Of a DNA stretch of 64,000 nt, positions 7,738 to 15,965 are shown in pieces. The stretch is taken from assembly GCA_016219545.1 (NCBI GenBank), contig JACRMH010000022.1:101108-165107 (forward strand), in the 5' to 3' direction. The stretch comes from Chloroflexota bacterium. GTDB taxonomy: Bacteria > Chloroflexota > Anaerolineae > Anaerolineales > Villigracilaceae. Numbering within the stretch: position 1 is the first letter of the stretch; each line of letters opens with the position of its first letter. The notes beneath the pieces were generated by a model, which did no database searches, was not told where the DNA came from, and saw only the letters and a program-made list of their open reading frames with translations. Made by a program: the position numbers and the translations under genes.

Positions 7738-7748
7738 TAAAAGTTTTT

Positions 7749-8729
7749 GGCTCATATGTAAAGGATGTGCAGAGAGATGATAAACTTTGGAAATGGAATT
7801 TCCAATCACAGAACTGCTTGACTATGAAAATAGCACTGAGTGGATACTCAAGCATTTTCATCCAAAGGGACTACAGTGTCCCAAGTGTAAAAAGACTGTT
7901 AAACAATCACGTAAGTTCAGACGCACCCAAACCAGCGAATTGGTTGTACATCGGTGTTACAACTGTGACACAATCTACAACTTATATACAGGCACTATCT
8001 TTCAAGGAAGCCAGTGGAGCGTGAAGCAAGTGGTACTCCTGATGCGAGGCATTTGCAAAAAAGGTGAGACGACACGGGAACTGGCAGCCGAACTTGGCTT
8101 GAGCTACAAAACTGTATTGGTCATGCGGCATAAGGTGCAAGACAACGCAGAACTTGAACAACCGAATACACCACTCCCTGACAGCCATTCGGAAACAGAC
8201 GAAATGTTTCAAAATGCGGGGGAAAAAAGGTGTACTTCATCCCGATCCTGAGGATCCACCACGAAAACGAGCGAATAAACAACGTGGACACGGGACCTAT
8301 GATAATGACCGACCTCCCATCGTTGGAACAGTAGGACGCGAAAGTGACCAAGTGCGTTTACGGGTAGTTCATAATACAAATCGAAAAACCCTCGAAGCTC
8401 ATGTCCATCAGTTTACGAACAAAGAAGCAACCTGTTACACCGATGATTGGCAAGCCTACAATCACATCATTCGAGAACATCTCACTGTTTGTCACGCCGA
8501 TCATGAATGGGCTCGCGACGATAATGGCGATGGTATTCGAGAAGTTCATACAAACACTATTGAAGGAATGTGGACAGATGTCCGAAACTATCTACGTCCT
8601 TTCAAAGGTGTCCATAAAGACTATCTGAGCGGTTATGTGGCAATGACTGAGTTTCGTAGAAACCTCAAACGCATTTCACCTGAGTTCATTGCCGCTCTCG
8701 TTACTCTGCACACCGATGACACATGAGCC
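7749..8729 (+). mobile_element. IS1595-like insertion sequence, about 1 kb, transposase frameshifted
   Basis: The transposase genes are bracketed by near-identical inverted ends: GGCTCATATGT at 7749-7759 and the reverse complement of ACACATGAGCC at 8719-8729, which is GGCTCATGTGT (one mismatch). The similarity may extend outwards by about 10-15 bases (TAAAAGTTTTT against AAAAAACTT), so the true ends may lie near 7737 and 8743. The transposase stop codon lies inside the right repeat, as is usual for an IS. I could not identify a convincing target duplication. Confidence 0.7.
7787..8726 (+). pseudogene. IS1595-family transposase split by a +1 frameshift
   Basis: The two track ORFs (7787..8251 and 8154..8726) are halves of one transposase. 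The first half carries the zinc ribbon (CPKC...HRCYNC), the TIYNLYTGTIFQGS motif and an HTH region; the second half carries the ISXO2-like DDE domain, with TDDWQAYNHI as one acidic site and NTIEGMWTDVRNYLRPFKGV as the C-terminal glutamate region. The reading frame breaks near 8217-8228 in a GGGGGAAAAAA tract; one extra base restores EMFQNAGEKKG into VLHP. This may be a real inactivating mutation, a homopolymer sequencing error, or, less likely, programmed frameshifting. Confidence 0.82.
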
Positions 8730-8748
8730 AAGTTTTTTCCTGCCACAT

Positions 8749-8782: not shown

Positions 8783-9542
8783 ATAAAATCACATTGAAGT
8801 ATTTCTTGAGAATTGATCCCCGGTCATCTTCTTTGACTTCCTGTGTGGTGCGGTTCCCGTTTGATGTGACGATCAACTTGTCATTATCCAATGAAACGCG
8901 GCCATCTTCCGTGAGCCGCGAGATGATCCGCTTTCTTGTGAATATGGATTGCGGTGACGACTGGTGATAAAGACAGGCATCCAGGTATTCATCCGGGAAC
9001 CTATGCGGGATGATGTCGAAAAAGTATTGACGTTCGTGTGAGCCGTCATAATCACGCTGCCAGAGTTGGTATCCGTTATTAAATTGTTCCAACCAGTAAC
9101 CCCGTGCGCCCTGGACCTGTTCATTGGGATCGTCCAAATTTAATGGTTCTGTGAAGGAGTCGCCCCAGCCAACATCCACCAGCCAGCGCGTGGGATCTTT
9201 TGGGATATGTACCATGAGTGTGAGGTGATCAAAGTCAATGCCGAAGGTATCGTCCTTCTCATGGTAATCACGTGCGTTGAGATAGGTGACCTCGTAGCCG
9301 ATCTCTTTCAACAGCCAGGCAAAGAGTCCGTTTAGCTCATAACAAAATCCGCCGCGTTGACGGGTAATGAGTTTGTCCCATAGCGATTTCTCGTCAAGCA
9401 GAATGGGACGATCGAGCCCAATATCCAAATTTTCAAACGGGACGCTAAGCATGTGCGCAAATTGAAGTCCGCGCAGGGTTTCAAGATTTGCCTTCACGTC
9501 AGGCGCGTAGCCAATTCGGTGTAAGTATTCCTGTAACTTCAT
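8781..9542 (-). CDS. nat: arylamine N-acetyltransferase
   Basis: A 253-residue cytoplasmic enzyme of the NAT family, which moves acetyl groups from acetyl-CoA to arylamines, hydrazines or related amines. The catalytic triad is complete: C67 in RGGFCYELN, H106 in FDHLTL and D123 in VDVGWGD. The N-terminal VPFENLDIG motif is also typical. Its start overlaps the stop of the upstream membrane-protein gene by four bases (ATGA), so the two form an operon. Some NATs act on polyketide or secondary-metabolite intermediates; nothing here shows that. Confidence 0.92.
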   Translation of the reverse strand: MKLQEYLHRIGYAPDVKANLETLRGLQFAHMLSVPFENLDIGLDRPILLDEKSLWDKLITRQRGGFCYELNGLFAWLLKEIGYEVTYLNARDYHEKDDTFGIDFDHLTLMVHIPKDPTRWLVDVGWGDSFTEPLNLDDPNEQVQGARGYWLEQFNNGYQLWQRDYDGSHERQYFFDIIPHRFPDEYLDACLYHQSSPQSIFTRKRIISRLTEDGRVSLDNDKLIVTSNGNRTTQEVKEDDRGSILKKYFNVIL

Positions 9543-10408
9543 TGGTTCTTATAAATTGGTTTGGATACTTTTACAAAGATATGTTGAATGGATGGTTTGT
9601 GTAAAATGAATGCAAGGATGAGCATGGATAATGCGATCCATAATAAAGCGGGCGGATCAAGGATAACGCCAGAGACCAACCCTGCAACCAACAAGTAAAA
9701 ATGGGTAAGGAACGGGACCCAAAAAGCCAGCGGGTCAACAGGCGTTTGGTAAAAGCGCGGGCGTGATACAACCACAATAAAAAGAGCGCTGATCAATACC
9801 GGGGCAATGGTGAGTGTGTGATAGTCAAATGGAATGATGAAAGTGATGAAGGCATTGGTGAACATCACACAGACCAACCCGATGAGGATTCCAAGGAATG
9901 GCGAAAACCATTTGCCGATCCAGTCCGTGCGTTGAGATAAGAGGCGATAGCCGAAAGAGAACGATGAAACCACCCAGAACCATGCCCAAAAATTAGCATA
10001 AGGCACACCGAAATATTGAAAGTTCAAACCTTGTCCCCAATCCCAGAAGCCGAGGCGGATGGCGACAGTGTCCAGCGCGAGGTCAATATTCAGGGCAAGC
10101 AGTCCATCGAGAATTGGGCGAGTCCAGTAGGGCAGGGAGCTTCCGTCCGAGAATTCCATCAGGGCGTAAATGATGCAACTCCAGGCCACACCGATGCACA
10201 GGGGCACATCCAGAATCATGATGAGGAACCGGCCGTACTCATATGCGTTCAATTGGCGGATGGTGGCGAGCTCAAGCAAAACCCCGAATAATATGCCTGT
10301 AAATAATTTCAATAGATTCGCCGTGCCGTGCTTTAAAGCATGGCGAAGGCAAATTGCAAACTGGATGTATATGGTGAGTTCAAAAAGGATAAAGTAGGTG
10401 TTTGGCAT
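9539..10408 (-). CDS. carotenoid biosynthesis-like membrane protein (DUF422 / CruF-like)
   Basis: A 289-residue polytopic membrane protein with about eight hydrophobic helices. The segment LALDTVAIRLGFWDWG followed by YFGVPYANFWAWFWV is the hallmark of the carotenoid biosynthesis protein family (DUF422), whose members include C50 carotenoid and 1',2'-hydratase enzymes. No other carotenoid gene is present, so the substrate is open. The ATG has a possible -10 box (TAGAAT) 8 nt upstream and no obvious ribosome-binding site. It is coupled to the NAT gene by a 4-base overlap; a joint role is possible but not shown. Confidence 0.72.
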   Translation of the reverse strand: MPNTYFILFELTIYIQFAICLRHALKHGTANLLKLFTGILFGVLLELATIRQLNAYEYGRFLIMILDVPLCIGVAWSCIIYALMEFSDGSSLPYWTRPILDGLLALNIDLALDTVAIRLGFWDWGQGLNFQYFGVPYANFWAWFWVVSSFSFGYRLLSQRTDWIGKWFSPFLGILIGLVCVMFTNAFITFIIPFDYHTLTIAPVLISALFIVVVSRPRFYQTPVDPLAFWVPFLTHFYLLVAGLVSGVILDPPALLWIALSMLILAFILHKPSIQHIFVKVSKPIYKNQ

Positions 10409-10456
10409 GAATACTCATTCTATTTGCGCAAGTCGCCCGTTATTTTGCCAACCCTG

Positions 10457-13102
10457 TTAATTGCCTTGATTAATTTCTATTATTTGGTAACTTTCGGATG
10501 GCAATTCTCTTAGAAAAATTGATGGAGTCATAGCAGTTTGTTTTTCTTTATTGTAATCAGCTGTTAATTTGGGATATGTGATATGCAGTAGTTCTTTAGC
10601 ACGTGTAATTGCTACATGAAATAATCGTCTTTCTTCCTCAACATCTGCCGCTTTATTACTCGGCATCCAGCTTTCTACCATCCCAATGATGAAAACACAT
10701 CTCCATTGCAATCCTTTGGCGGCATGTATGCTTGAAAGCATAATTTTTTCGCCAGTTTCAAAATTTGACGATGAAGTATTGTTTTTGACTTCAATACGTT
10801 CAAGCGTCATTTCTGTTAACAAGTTTTCAATGGTATTGTAGTGCCCAGCTAAATCTTGGAACACTTGTATGTCCTCTTGTTTAGATTCCCAGTCATTTGG
10901 ATAAGCTTTCTGTAAGTACGATAAGTAACGTTCATCTAGTAGAAATTGGATTAAATCTGGGATATTACTGTTTTGATGACGTTTTTGTAAACGCGATATT
11001 GTTTGAATTATTCCTTCCAAAGACTTTTTCGATAACAGTTCTAACTGACTATATTTTTTTTGAACTAAGTCCCAAAATTTAATATCTTGATTTTCGGATT
11101 CTTCTTCCAACGTTTGGAATATTTTAAAAACATTGCTTGATTGTTGTCTAAAAACATTTCCAAGGCTGATTGTGTCGTTTGGATTTATAACTAAACGTAA
11201 CCAAGCAATTATGTCTTTGATGTGGGACTCCCCGAAAAATGACTTTGCCCCTGTGATTTCATATGGAATATCAGCCTGAATCAATGCAAGTTCAATCTGT
11301 GCTTTTTGAAACCCAGATCGGAAAAGAACAGAAATATCTCCCAATTTGTATCCCATTTGATTTAGTTCCAGTATACGGGTAACAATAAACGATGCTTCCA
11401 TAGCTTGATTTTTGGCAATACAGACCCATGGCGTTTCTGCTTGATCTGATGAGCGGTTGGTAAATAAGGTTTTTTGTTTGCGTTGTTTATTATTTGAAAT
11501 ATTCTCGTTTGCAAGCTTTAAAATTTGTGGTGTGTTACGATAATTTTCCTCAAGGCGTAGCTCCTTTGCTCCATGAAAAACCGTTTCAAAATTTAGTATA
11601 TTTTCTATTCTAGCTGCACGAAATCCATATATTGCTTGGGCGTCATCGCCGACTACTGTGACATTATTTTTGTTCGCGAGTAGCTTAAGCAGGTGCGCTT
11701 GAATTGGAGACGTATCTTGGTATTCATCCACTAATATATATTTGAATTGCTCTTGGTATTTTTTGCGAACAGCAACATGTTTCTCCAGCAATGAGACTGT
11801 GTTTGTAAGGAGATCATCAAAATCCATTCTGTCACTTCGCTTCAGCCTTCGTTGATATGCATTAAATATTTTTTCTGCTAAATCTTCTTTAATATTGATG
11901 TTGTCAGATGAAGGTGCGTTTTTCCAATTCTCCATGGAATTTCGTGAGAAGCTATAAATACTTTGCAAGTCTCTTGTGTTTACATATATGTTATTTGGGA
12001 TACATCTCTTAAATATCTCTTCGCTTTCGTATTGATCTACAATAGCAAATTCCGGAGAGTACCCCAATAGTGATGCATTTTCAACCAATATTCGACGACA
12101 AATACTATGAAATGTCCCTATCCAAAGCTGATCAATATTGTTTCGTGTTACCCTGGAAAGTCTTTGGTACATTTCGTGAGCGGCTTTATTGGTAAAAGTC
12201 ATAAGTAATATTTCAGATGGCTGGCATTTTTCCAATAAGTAGGCCGCCCTTAAAATTAGAGTATCTGTTTTCCCTGTTCCAGCCCCTGCAAGTATAAGCA
12301 AATGGCTGTCTGAGTGAAGAACAGCTAACCTCTGCTGCTCATTTAATTCTTCTAAGTAACCGGGTAGTTTGTTAATTGTTTTTGGGAGGGATGTGGTGAA
12401 TTTAAAACCCACAGTATATTTACGGGTAGTTAAAGCTGGCAACTCGTTTATTGATTTGAATATCTCTTTATTTGATGCTTCGTTATCTAGATTTATATTC
12501 GTGTTTAATTCAATACATCCTAAAACGTCTTTGATTAATTTGCGAATTTCATCGTTTTGCAAACGAATTTTTGTGCTTCGTATTTGTTTTATTATTTCTG
12601 CTAATTCAGGCAGCCCGACTATGTGAAACCATCTGTGCTTTCCGAAGTCAAAATCGAATTTAGAATTTATGTTCTTTTTTGGGGAAAAAGCGACTATGCC
12701 TGAAACATGTTCGAATGTGCTCTGGTCGGCTTTTTGTTTTGAGAGAAAAGACTCTCTGTGGTCTTTTAGGTAACCCATTAATGAATATCTATTTTTTCTT
12801 ACTTGTTGAAAAGGATTGTCTGTGTTTCCTCCTTTTAATGACTTTTCTGTGTTTTCAATTATCCAGTTTCCATTTTCTTTGCCAATAACAGGCGCTTCGC
12901 AATCTTTTAATTCCACTACAATAATTGCGTCTGATTTAAATATAGCAAGGTCTAGGTCCTCTCCGCAGTGGAAGTCGAAAGCAACAGAGATTAAGTGGCT
13001 TTCGGAAGCAAATTCTTTTTGAAATAATTTTATTATCTGCTCACGTGCTTGCATTTCATGAGTTGTATCAGGTTCTTTTCCCATCCAAAATTCAACTGTC
13101 AT
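10457..13102 (-). CDS. UvrD/Rep-type DNA helicase with N-terminal NERD nuclease domain
   Basis: An 881-residue protein. Residues 1-130 resemble a nuclease-related domain (NERD), with DLDLAIFKSDAIIVVELKD holding the D and E-x-K pattern of PD-D/ExK-like nucleases. The rest is an SF1A helicase: Q-motif NEQQRLAV, Walker A ILAGAGTGKTDT near residue 270, FTNKAAHEM, DEYQDTSPIQ, GDDAQAIYGFR, and the C-terminal SSIHAAKGLQW and VAITRAKELL. The gene is clearly richer in AT (many AAA, ATT, TTA codons) than all neighbours, which suggests transfer. An AGGAG site precedes the ATG. Such proteins act in repair or in phage defence; no known defence partner is adjacent. Confidence 0.88.
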   Translation of the reverse strand: MTVEFWMGKEPDTTHEMQAREQIIKLFQKEFASESHLISVAFDFHCGEDLDLAIFKSDAIIVVELKDCEAPVIGKENGNWIIENTEKSLKGGNTDNPFQQVRKNRYSLMGYLKDHRESFLSKQKADQSTFEHVSGIVAFSPKKNINSKFDFDFGKHRWFHIVGLPELAEIIKQIRSTKIRLQNDEIRKLIKDVLGCIELNTNINLDNEASNKEIFKSINELPALTTRKYTVGFKFTTSLPKTINKLPGYLEELNEQQRLAVLHSDSHLLILAGAGTGKTDTLILRAAYLLEKCQPSEILLMTFTNKAAHEMYQRLSRVTRNNIDQLWIGTFHSICRRILVENASLLGYSPEFAIVDQYESEEIFKRCIPNNIYVNTRDLQSIYSFSRNSMENWKNAPSSDNINIKEDLAEKIFNAYQRRLKRSDRMDFDDLLTNTVSLLEKHVAVRKKYQEQFKYILVDEYQDTSPIQAHLLKLLANKNNVTVVGDDAQAIYGFRAARIENILNFETVFHGAKELRLEENYRNTPQILKLANENISNNKQRKQKTLFTNRSSDQAETPWVCIAKNQAMEASFIVTRILELNQMGYKLGDISVLFRSGFQKAQIELALIQADIPYEITGAKSFFGESHIKDIIAWLRLVINPNDTISLGNVFRQQSSNVFKIFQTLEEESENQDIKFWDLVQKKYSQLELLSKKSLEGIIQTISRLQKRHQNSNIPDLIQFLLDERYLSYLQKAYPNDWESKQEDIQVFQDLAGHYNTIENLLTEMTLERIEVKNNTSSSNFETGEKIMLSSIHAAKGLQWRCVFIIGMVESWMPSNKAADVEEERRLFHVAITRAKELLHITYPKLTADYNKEKQTAMTPSIFLRELPSESYQIIEINQGN

Positions 13103-13166
13103 ATTTTCTCCTGATAATATTTATGAGGTGATCTTCAACATATTTTCTCTTGGATAATTTGATAAA

Positions 13167-15965
13167 TTATACTCCCAGCCATTTCTCAGTTTCGTGTGGC
13201 AATTGACTGATCGTGCCATGAAATACGGTACATTGGGGTAGTGATTCCAAAAACATCCGCCCATATTGTTTGGTGAGCACACGCCGATCCAAAATGACCA
13301 CAATGCCACGGTCGGAGGCAGTACGAATGAGGCGTCCAAATCCCTGTTTGAATTTTAGAACTGCCTCAGGTAGGTAATATTGGTTGAACGAGTCTTCGTA
13401 CAGTTCGGAGCGCGCCGCAATTATCGGGTCGGAGGGTACACCGAAGGGAAGCTTGGTAATGACCACTACAGATAGCGCGTCGCCAGGCACATCTACGCCT
13501 TCCCAGAAGGAACGAGTGCCAAGCAGGACAGCACGTTCGGTGGTTTTGAATGATTCAAGTAAGGCATTGGGCGATGCGCCTTCGCCCTGTTCATAGACGA
13601 AAATATCTTCACGTCCTAGCGGACCGGTGATAGCCTGTGCTGTTTTCTTGAGCGCCGCATAGGATGTAAATAATACCAACATTCGTCCGCCCGTGGCTTT
13701 GGCGGTGGAGATGATGGCTCGCTCAAGTTCCTTCTGGTAGTTTTGTGCGTTTGGTTCAGGTATGTCATTGGCAATATAGAGCAAGGCGCTTGATTCGTAA
13801 TCAAAAGGTGAGCCAAGCGCCAAGGTATCCACTTCATCAGCGGAAAGCGTATTACGTAAATAGCTAAACTCACCGTACGATGTTGTGAGTGTGGCAGACG
13901 CCATGATGACGCAGTTTTTTGTATACCATAAAGTTTTTTGCACCAACGGACCCACCCGCAGCGGCGCGGCATTCAACGATAACCTCTCGCCGCGCGGATT
14001 AACCTCGACCCAATAGATCAGTTCGTTGGACGGTTTGGTCATCATGCCGGAAGATGCGGCTTCGGCTTCTGTCATCCGGCGGATCAGACTGCTCAGTATC
14101 CCCATTACATCCTGTACGTTTTCGTGACCTTCGGCGTAAACATCACTTAATGCTTTGTAAATTTCATCTAAGGTTTTCAAGAGCAAGCCCATCGTCTCGC
14201 TGAGCTGGTCCCACATGATCTCCACATCGCTCCAGCCGGGCATGGTGCGTGTGGCAGGGATAATACGCATTTGCCACGAGTAATTGCTGGGAGGCTGTCC
14301 CTCGCGTTGAATGGCGATGAAGTCGCCGAGCACGTTGAAAAATTCGCGCGTGATCTGTTCGAGGCGGAAGGCCTGGTCAGTGGCGCGTTTTGATTTTTGC
14401 TGGAGCAGTCCAAAGTCAGAGGGACGAAGCGCGTCGTGAGTTTCGGTCAGCAATCTGCCGAGCACGCCTGCAGACGATCCGCCCAATTCCTTGAGCATCC
14501 GTTCCAGGTCGCTTTGAGTCATGCGGAACGAGAGCGCACCGGTCACGGCATTTTCCATGTGATGCGCTTCATCCACGATCACATAATCATATTCAGGCAG
14601 AACCTTGCTTCCGGTGGAAACATCTGAAAGCAGGAGCGCATGATTGACGATGAGCAAATGCGAATTGATCGCGGCTTGCTTGGCGCGATGGAATGCACAC
14701 GTGCCGCTCATTCGCCCGAGGCAGGTCTCTGTGGTGCAGGCATCATCTTCCGCTGAGAGTCTGCTCCACACTTCGCGTTCGATGGGACCCGTGAGATTTA
14801 ATTCATTCCTGTCGCCGCTGTCGTTTTCCAATTTCCAGACAATAATTTTCGCCAGCACACGCATTTCGTTTGCGTCTTTCGGTCCGTGTTGGCGCATGAA
14901 TTGAAGCCTGCGCGGACAAAGATAATTTGCGCGGCCTTTCAACACTGCCGCGCGCACATCCAAATTCAGCGCGGCTTGCAGGTCGGGAATATCTTTTTTG
15001 ATGAGTTGGTCTTGCAGGTTGATGGTGTTGGTGGATACGACGACCCGTGTGTTGTTCTGGAATGCGAACATGGCCGCCGGGACGAGATAGGCGAACGATT
15101 TACCAACACCGGTTCCAGCCTCGACCAGTAAATGGTTGCCGGTTGAAAGGGCATTGGTCACCGCTTTGAGCATATCCACCTGCTCGGGACGGTGCTCATA
15201 AGATTCGAAATACTGTGAGAATGGTCCGCCATACTCCAGCACGGACGCGATTTCTTCGGGGTCAAGCGGAGTGGGTTCTTCGTTCTTCTCAACCGGAGAA
15301 TAATCTTTTTTGGCTGAATCAAATTTCGGCTTGGGAATTGAAACGCTTCGAGTCGACTTAGCCTTGATTCCTTCTTTCGCTTTCGCCTGCAATGCCTGTT
15401 CAAACGCCCAGCCTGCATCCCAATCTACAAAGTTGCCAAGCTCAACGATCTCCTGCAAAGTTTCAAAGGGAAGTTCGCGGGCCATGTCGAGCAGGCGCAC
15501 ATAAGCGGCTTGGGTGACGCGCGCATCATCCAGAGCGCGATGGGTGGCGGGCAGGGGAATGTTTAGCTGTTGACCGAGCGAGCCGAGGTTGTAGCGGCTG
15601 GCGGTTGGCATGAGCACCGATGCGAGTTCGTAGGTATCGAGGGTTTGACTATTAATAAACAATCCTGCTTTGCGCAGGAAGCCAATATCGAATTTGACGT
15701 TGTGTCCGAGAATGGGAGAGTCGCCGACGAAGTCGGTGAGTTCCTGCATGATGTCGCGCAGACGCGGAGCCTGGCGCACCATGGCATTATCAATGCCGGT
15801 TAACCCCGTGATGAAATCAGGGATGGCTTTGCCCGGATTGATGAGGGTGGAAAATTCATCTTCCACGCGGCGACCGTTGAATTTAACCGCGCCGATCTCG
15901 ATGATGGCTTCGCGGTTTTCGTCGAGCCCGGTGGTTTCTATGTCTAGTGAAACAATGGATGTCAT
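13167..15965 (-). CDS. DinG-family helicase fused to a DEDDh 3'-5' exonuclease
   Basis: A 932-residue protein. Residues 1-165 form a DnaQ-like exonuclease with all acidic residues: D8 and E10 in SLDIETTG, D93 in HNVKFDIGFL, H142 and D147 in THRALDDARV. From about residue 240 there is an XPD/DinG SF2 helicase: VEAGTGVGKS, a four-cysteine region (NYLCPRR ... CTTETC ... CAF) likely binding [4Fe-4S], DEAHHMENA, ASATL, GTRSFWEGVDVPG and QGFGRLIRT. The same architecture is known in Firmicutes DinG. It probably unwinds or trims DNA during repair. It is separated by 64 bp from the downstream NERD helicase; a joint transcript is possible. Confidence 0.92.
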   Translation of the reverse strand: MTSIVSLDIETTGLDENREAIIEIGAVKFNGRRVEDEFSTLINPGKAIPDFITGLTGIDNAMVRQAPRLRDIMQELTDFVGDSPILGHNVKFDIGFLRKAGLFINSQTLDTYELASVLMPTASRYNLGSLGQQLNIPLPATHRALDDARVTQAAYVRLLDMARELPFETLQEIVELGNFVDWDAGWAFEQALQAKAKEGIKAKSTRSVSIPKPKFDSAKKDYSPVEKNEEPTPLDPEEIASVLEYGGPFSQYFESYEHRPEQVDMLKAVTNALSTGNHLLVEAGTGVGKSFAYLVPAAMFAFQNNTRVVVSTNTINLQDQLIKKDIPDLQAALNLDVRAAVLKGRANYLCPRRLQFMRQHGPKDANEMRVLAKIIVWKLENDSGDRNELNLTGPIEREVWSRLSAEDDACTTETCLGRMSGTCAFHRAKQAAINSHLLIVNHALLLSDVSTGSKVLPEYDYVIVDEAHHMENAVTGALSFRMTQSDLERMLKELGGSSAGVLGRLLTETHDALRPSDFGLLQQKSKRATDQAFRLEQITREFFNVLGDFIAIQREGQPPSNYSWQMRIIPATRTMPGWSDVEIMWDQLSETMGLLLKTLDEIYKALSDVYAEGHENVQDVMGILSSLIRRMTEAEAASSGMMTKPSNELIYWVEVNPRGERLSLNAAPLRVGPLVQKTLWYTKNCVIMASATLTTSYGEFSYLRNTLSADEVDTLALGSPFDYESSALLYIANDIPEPNAQNYQKELERAIISTAKATGGRMLVLFTSYAALKKTAQAITGPLGREDIFVYEQGEGASPNALLESFKTTERAVLLGTRSFWEGVDVPGDALSVVVITKLPFGVPSDPIIAARSELYEDSFNQYYLPEAVLKFKQGFGRLIRTASDRGIVVILDRRVLTKQYGRMFLESLPQCTVFHGTISQLPHETEKWLGV

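Follow-up and report, generated by a model that had tools for sequence, protein, structure and literature searches.

A horizontally transferred NERD-UvrD nuclease-helicase gene behind a probably exchanged dinG 3' end in a Chloroflexota bacterium

Introduction

How does a single AT-rich gene come to lie between two resident genes, and what might its product do there? The question is raised by a 64,000-nucleotide stretch of Chloroflexota DNA (the window), in which a gene joining a NERD nuclease domain to a UvrD-type helicase stands between dinG and a CruF-like carotenoid-synthesis gene. Defence genes are known to land between fixed core genes, and 29–47% of such sites contain no mobile gene (PMC10250203). 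One way to gain DNA is homology-facilitated illegitimate recombination, described for naturally competent bacteria and for E. coli conjugation, in which one end is homologous and the other illegitimate (PMC3240628). NERD domains are named in Mokosh type I, in Nhi-like systems and in PglW of BREX type 2, and are thought to be DNA-cutting effectors (PMC10952713, PMC12839542); the UvrD-like GajB of Gabija senses DNA ends (PMC10952713).

Results

Pfam places a NERD domain ahead of a complete UvrD-type SF1A helicase (residues 253–843) in one 881-aa chain, directly downstream of a DinG-type exonuclease-helicase (Table 1). Both the fusion and the position had been proposed from the letters of the sequence in an earlier note on this DNA, and both stand. 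The NERD match scores 28.0 bits against a curated cut-off of 22.1, while the UvrD-helicase and UvrD_C matches reach 261 and 165 bits. SF1 motifs can be read by eye in the translation, and in an alignment of six relatives the putative NERD catalytic residues D51 and K66 are invariant, with E64 kept in five of the six. An AGGAGA motif lies upstream of the ATG, within the spacer that separates the gene from dinG. According to the ORF list, this is the sole gene of the insert, which holds no integrase or transposase. Promoter and terminator scans gave results near chance, and a structure prediction from the single sequence (mean pLDDT 35) was left out of the evidence.

Table 1. Coordinates of the NERD-UvrD gene, its domains and the flanking features in the window
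Feature	Position	Strand	Basis and remarks
NERD-UvrD nuclease-helicase gene	10457..13102	-	ORF call; 881 aa, ATG start, GC 35.7%
NERD domain, residues 27-139	12686..13024	-	Pfam; putative catalytic residues D51, E64, K66
UvrD/REP helicase N-terminal domain, residues 253-509	11576..12346	-	Pfam; GAGTGKT and DEYQD motifs in translation
UvrD C-terminal helicase domain (UvrD_C), residues 516-843	10574..11557	-	Pfam
AT-rich spacer, dinG stop to new gene	13103..13166	-	Sequence; without counterpart at the empty site; part of the insert
Resident dinG (exonuclease-helicase), 3' end probably exchanged	13167..15965	-	Pfam; present in 58/61 relatives
Probable foreign dinG 3' end	13167..13406	-	Mismatch to L067; boundary approximate, clearest over the final 22 codons (13167-13235)
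Decayed stretch, probably left from the recipient's own dinG 3' end	10409..10456	-	13-nt identity and weaker match to L069
Resident CruF-like carotenoid-synthesis gene	9539..10408	-	Pfam; synteny; adjoins dinG at the empty site

To place the gene's composition, we compared it with 253 ORFs drawn from 325 kb of its own genome (4.15 Mb). Its GC content (0.357) and GC3 (0.305) lie far from the means of these ORFs (GC 0.499, sd 0.043; GC3 0.539, sd 0.081), and it ranks second lowest in GC and sixth lowest in codon-usage fit. Neighbouring genes range from 0.47 to 0.53 in GC, and the limits of the AT-rich block (~10.4 to 13.2 kb) coincide with the gene and its 5' spacer. The striking AT-richness claimed earlier is therefore real, and a normal composition is excluded.

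Independent of composition, several lines of evidence identify the gene as transferred from another species, as the earlier note had proposed. In the two closest relatives, dinG abuts the next gene and the site is empty: the gap between dinG and the CruF-like gene is 68 bp in G019 (L067) and about 8 bp in G008 (L069). The former has the order plsX, a gene for a 231-aa protein, dinG (90% identical), the CruF-like gene and an N-acetyltransferase gene. A whole-protein search of 60 relatives (36 from the same genus) matched the helicase part alone, with PcrA-like proteins at 31–39% identity. The first 250 residues are absent from the other same-genus genomes, about 43 of which were among the 400 searched for the order; a set of 400 from the phylum was also covered. 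A tree of 43 helicases excludes the window protein from the order's PcrA clade with a support of 100, whereas it places the resident PcrA of the same genome inside that clade among its genus; the tree thus does not follow the species. The branch is long (1.91), making the exact placement of the window helicase unsure, although its exclusion from the PcrA clade is well supported. Since the gene sits within a 165-kb contig and is flanked on both sides by genus-typical genes, a contig-end or binning artefact can be excluded. Vertical inheritance, with loss in all relatives and an unusual composition kept for functional reasons, gains a little from the incomplete sampling of species in the genus; arrival is favoured by the tree, by the empty sites of the nearest species and by the dinG tail exchange described below, and we regard this alternative as very improbable.

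The source of the gene was sought more widely. Full-length relatives of the 881-aa protein were absent from every collection searched, and a genome-wide scan returned helicase matches at the PcrA/UvrD level only, none of them covering the NERD part. No relatives were found among phages, nor in three scans of viral contigs that started from the full-length protein, from its NERD part and from an alignment of NERD sequences. Plasmid matches were limited to NERD proteins of 23–25% identity that lack the helicase fusion. The gene is on no identified mobile element, and no donor emerged from the searches, whether judged by the dinG tail or by the fused protein.

It had also been suggested that this spot gathers DNA-processing enzymes. 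The comparison speaks against that: dinG is a conserved resident gene (Table 1) beside which the helicase gene was dropped, so that the apparent cluster is a by-product of the insertion. We likewise reject dinG and the helicase as a functional pair, because nearly all relatives have dinG but not the helicase.

The footprint of the event is probably larger than the gene itself (10457–13102), comprising a foreign dinG tail on one side and a remnant behind the new gene on the other. Over its last 240 nt, the window dinG differs from that of L067 at 31.0% of positions, compared to 15.5% in the body of the gene (Fisher P = 1.2e-8); in the control pair, L069 and L067, the corresponding values are 15.0% and 14.4%. 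On this measure the foreign stretch spans the last ~220–240 nt. The window dinG ends in CTVFHGTISQLPHETEKWLGV, a tail unique among the same-genus dinG genes read, the others of which end in tails like CTARQGAAAGLAKMAGDWLGV. The last 22 residues average 54% identity to other genera of the family versus 37% to the own genus, the reverse of the dinG body (68% versus 84%). Taken together, the excess of mismatches and the closeness of the tail to other genera indicate that the dinG end was most likely exchanged rather than merely mutated. The best match to the tail among 400 genomes of the order reaches just 74% over the last 47 aa, and hence we identified no donor.

On the other side, 48 nt separate the stop codon of the NERD-UvrD gene from the start of the CruF-like gene. 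This stretch begins with CAGGGTTGGCAAA; its first 13 nt are identical to the dinG end of L069, with a weaker match beyond, and the distance to the CruF-like start is nearly equal in the two genomes (48 nt versus 46 nt). Shuffling gave P = 2e-4 for the alignment to L069 and 0.0015–0.0044 for those to two other relatives. One caveat here is that the score is equalled at about six other points of the 64 kb, and position therefore forms part of the argument. Judged by sequence and position together, these 48 nt are probably the short, decayed end of the recipient's own dinG. No direct or inverted repeats stand out at the bounds of the insert.

A foreign tail and a remnant together suggest that the incoming DNA most likely carried a donor dinG end and the nuclease-helicase gene, without an integrase. 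The donor dinG 3' end would have come first, followed by the NERD-UvrD gene. On one side, shared dinG sequence would have allowed recombination into the recipient dinG; on the far side, a non-homologous or weakly homologous join would have fallen within the last ~40 nt of the recipient gene. Such a route, with one homologous and one illegitimate end, would yield the order seen in the window: dinG with a donor tail, the new gene, a scrap of the recipient dinG end and the resident CruF-like gene. The simplest reading is homology-facilitated illegitimate recombination, which has the same pair of unlike ends (PMC3240628). The locus also resembles the core-gene-flanked defence hotspots (PMC10250203), in that a candidate defence gene has landed between core genes. 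It differs from both precedents in that the insert is a single gene and the swapped 3' end of a core gene remains as a readable scar.

Could the insert instead be what is left of a site-specific integrative element, which entered at the dinG 3' end and restored the gene with its own copy of that end, its integrase since lost or supplied in trans? Elements of this kind do leave a restored gene end and a displaced original one, and in two genomes of the family, L184 and L209, displaced dinG ends of 120–156 nt begin at similar positions; it is these duplicated ends that keep a lost or in-trans integrase under consideration. Against this, the insert contains no integrase and is bounded by no fixed repeat, the remnant in the window is far shorter (48 nt), and the cargo in L184 and L209 is unrelated. 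We consider an integrative element possible but rather unlikely, and continue to prefer recombination through the dinG end.

We surveyed 80 loci (551 kb downstream of dinG) for extra copies of the dinG end. Clear copies were confined to L184 and L209, where they accompany toxin-antitoxin-like or unidentified genes, plus a lone tail in genome G682; the remnant in the window is too short to be detected by the model used. In L184 (4627–7584), dinG is followed by two insertions in succession, and behind each of them stands an additional dinG 3' end; the two duplications surround a PIN-toxin gene and a gene for a 601-aa protein that matches nothing in Pfam or PADLOC. L209 has one duplicated end, behind a DUF7718/DUF5647 gene pair. 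The tail in G682 (L185) spans 52 codons and lies ahead of a DegV-like gene. It is probably not a further insertion: no dinG body was found in the assembly, so a deletion remnant or missing sequence is the likelier explanation.

Among the occupants of the position just after dinG in other genomes are PDC-S06 (812 bits; L211), PDC-S11 (393 bits; L241), PIN-toxin genes (L200 and, as above, L184) and a number of AT-rich singletons; in many genomes, ordinary core genes fill the slot. Duplicated dinG ends and candidate defence genes in one slot raise the possibility of a recurrent landing site, and as evidence for a hotspot they are no more than suggestive. A stronger form of the idea is that, throughout the family, the dinG 3' end serves as a recurrent, integrase-free landing site for single defence or toxin-antitoxin genes. 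These would enter by recombining through that end and would swap or duplicate it each time, with its last ~120–240 nt acting as the transfer handle. We put this forward tentatively and think it doubtful as it stands.

What might the protein do? The earlier note had linked NERD-SF1 fusions to defence, and an architecture of this kind is indeed listed among defence genes: the PADLOC candidate C3a187 ('NERD+UvrD') likewise joins a leading NERD to a UvrD-type SF1 helicase in a single chain. Its model is 559 aa long, however, and the match to the window protein is weak and partial (102 bits, residues 255–621). In PADLOC, the NERD part matches PDC-M16A, then MkoA of Mokosh and, marginally, PglW. The PDC-M16A match (99.5 bits) covers profile positions 1–185 of 892. 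With PDC-M16A and the BREX-associated NERD-BrxD proteins (40–45% identity), the window protein shares a NERD subfamily over the first ~190 residues, but its C-terminal part is unrelated, a UvrD helicase replacing the BrxD ATPase or the remainder of PDC-M16A. Within the order, the closest relatives of the NERD part are of two kinds. Some are fused to a BrxD-type ATPase (466 bits), with a PglZ-like gene adjoining, an arrangement that occurs in two genomes (L150/L126 and L151/L127). Others are fused to proteins that resemble NB-ARC/STAND NTPases when read by eye.

For the helicase part, the best PADLOC matches (among the best 25 of 50) are Gabija GajB (298 bits) and a DRT-associated helicase (285 bits), which share with it a UvrD-type helicase in a defence setting. 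Unlike those systems, the window gene adjoins neither a reverse transcriptase nor GajA, the OLD-family nuclease of Gabija (its neighbours are dinG and the CruF-like gene), and its nuclease is fused in the same chain. PcrA, at 470 bits, is a closer match to the core than GajB, and so a role in repair would fit as well. Nhi and Nhi-like proteins, for which NERD is also given (PMC10952713), similarly combine a nuclease and an SF1-type helicase in a single protein, and Nhi is modelled to act on replication complexes with phage SSB (PMC10732053). By description, the window protein differs from Nhi in having a helicase of the UvrD/PcrA type, and no Nhi model appears among the matches to its N-terminal part (for the whole protein, among the best 25 of 50).

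The conserved NERD residues and the presence of the SF1 motifs, together with the defence-related NERD relatives and the published defence roles of NERD, make a motor-plus-nuclease acting on replicating or broken foreign DNA our best guess. The UvrD-type motor would load where DNA is broken or single-stranded, as in replicating phage DNA, and move 3' to 5', while the NERD domain would cut. We infer that the protein is most likely a stand-alone nuclease-helicase defence enzyme, directed against phages or plasmids. No defence genes adjoin it, its neighbours being dinG and the CruF-like gene, and we found no phage-linked relative; defence is accordingly read from family resemblance only.

An alternative is that the transferred gene serves DNA repair or recombination, as an accessory PcrA/UvrD helicase with a nuclease domain. 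The PcrA-like core, the stand-alone setting and the occurrence of NERD outside defence are all consistent with this. Weighing against it are the sporadic, single-genome presence and foreign AT-rich composition of the gene, the presence of its nearest NERD relatives in STAND-like proteins and at a BREX-like locus, and a resident PcrA already present in the genome. The window helicase itself lies outside the lineage's housekeeping PcrA/UvrD clade (support 100). We judge a repair role the less probable use of the gene, and unlikely overall.

Discussion

Taking arrival and function together, we lean, by a modest degree, towards a single-gene nuclease-helicase that was gained by horizontal transfer through dinG-end recombination and most likely acts as a stand-alone anti-phage or anti-plasmid enzyme. 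Genes of the NERD-helicase type are already known; the unusual part is the readable scar of acquisition. The arrival route of a lone defence-like gene can be followed here from the exchanged tail of a core gene and from what is probably a stranded remnant, with no mobile-element machinery. Were the slot behind dinG truly recurrent, it would account in part for the movement of single defence genes from one species to another in the absence of integrases. The comparison also reveals one NERD module with different partners in the same order, a helicase in the window and a BREX-type ATPase or STAND-like proteins elsewhere.

Three further features of the genome were observed. An AT-rich operon of three genes (L057:10982–17157, C49) combines a reverse transcriptase of defence type (RT_UG21 as best PADLOC model, 304 bits) with a UvrD helicase and with a 754-aa protein whose NERD match is weak; the two domain types of the window gene thus occur there as separate genes. 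The resident PcrA (L056:11074–14445, C46) has an intein-like insert at motif III (GDPDQ|CFPAG...VVHN|SIYAWRG) that matches Pfam Intein_splicing and Hint. Finally, an IS1595-type transposase that is absent between the N-acetyltransferase gene and dcd in the closest relative (L148) is present in the window at 7747–8731, where it is encoded in overlapping frames (7787–8251 and 8154–8726) between 28-nt inverted repeats.
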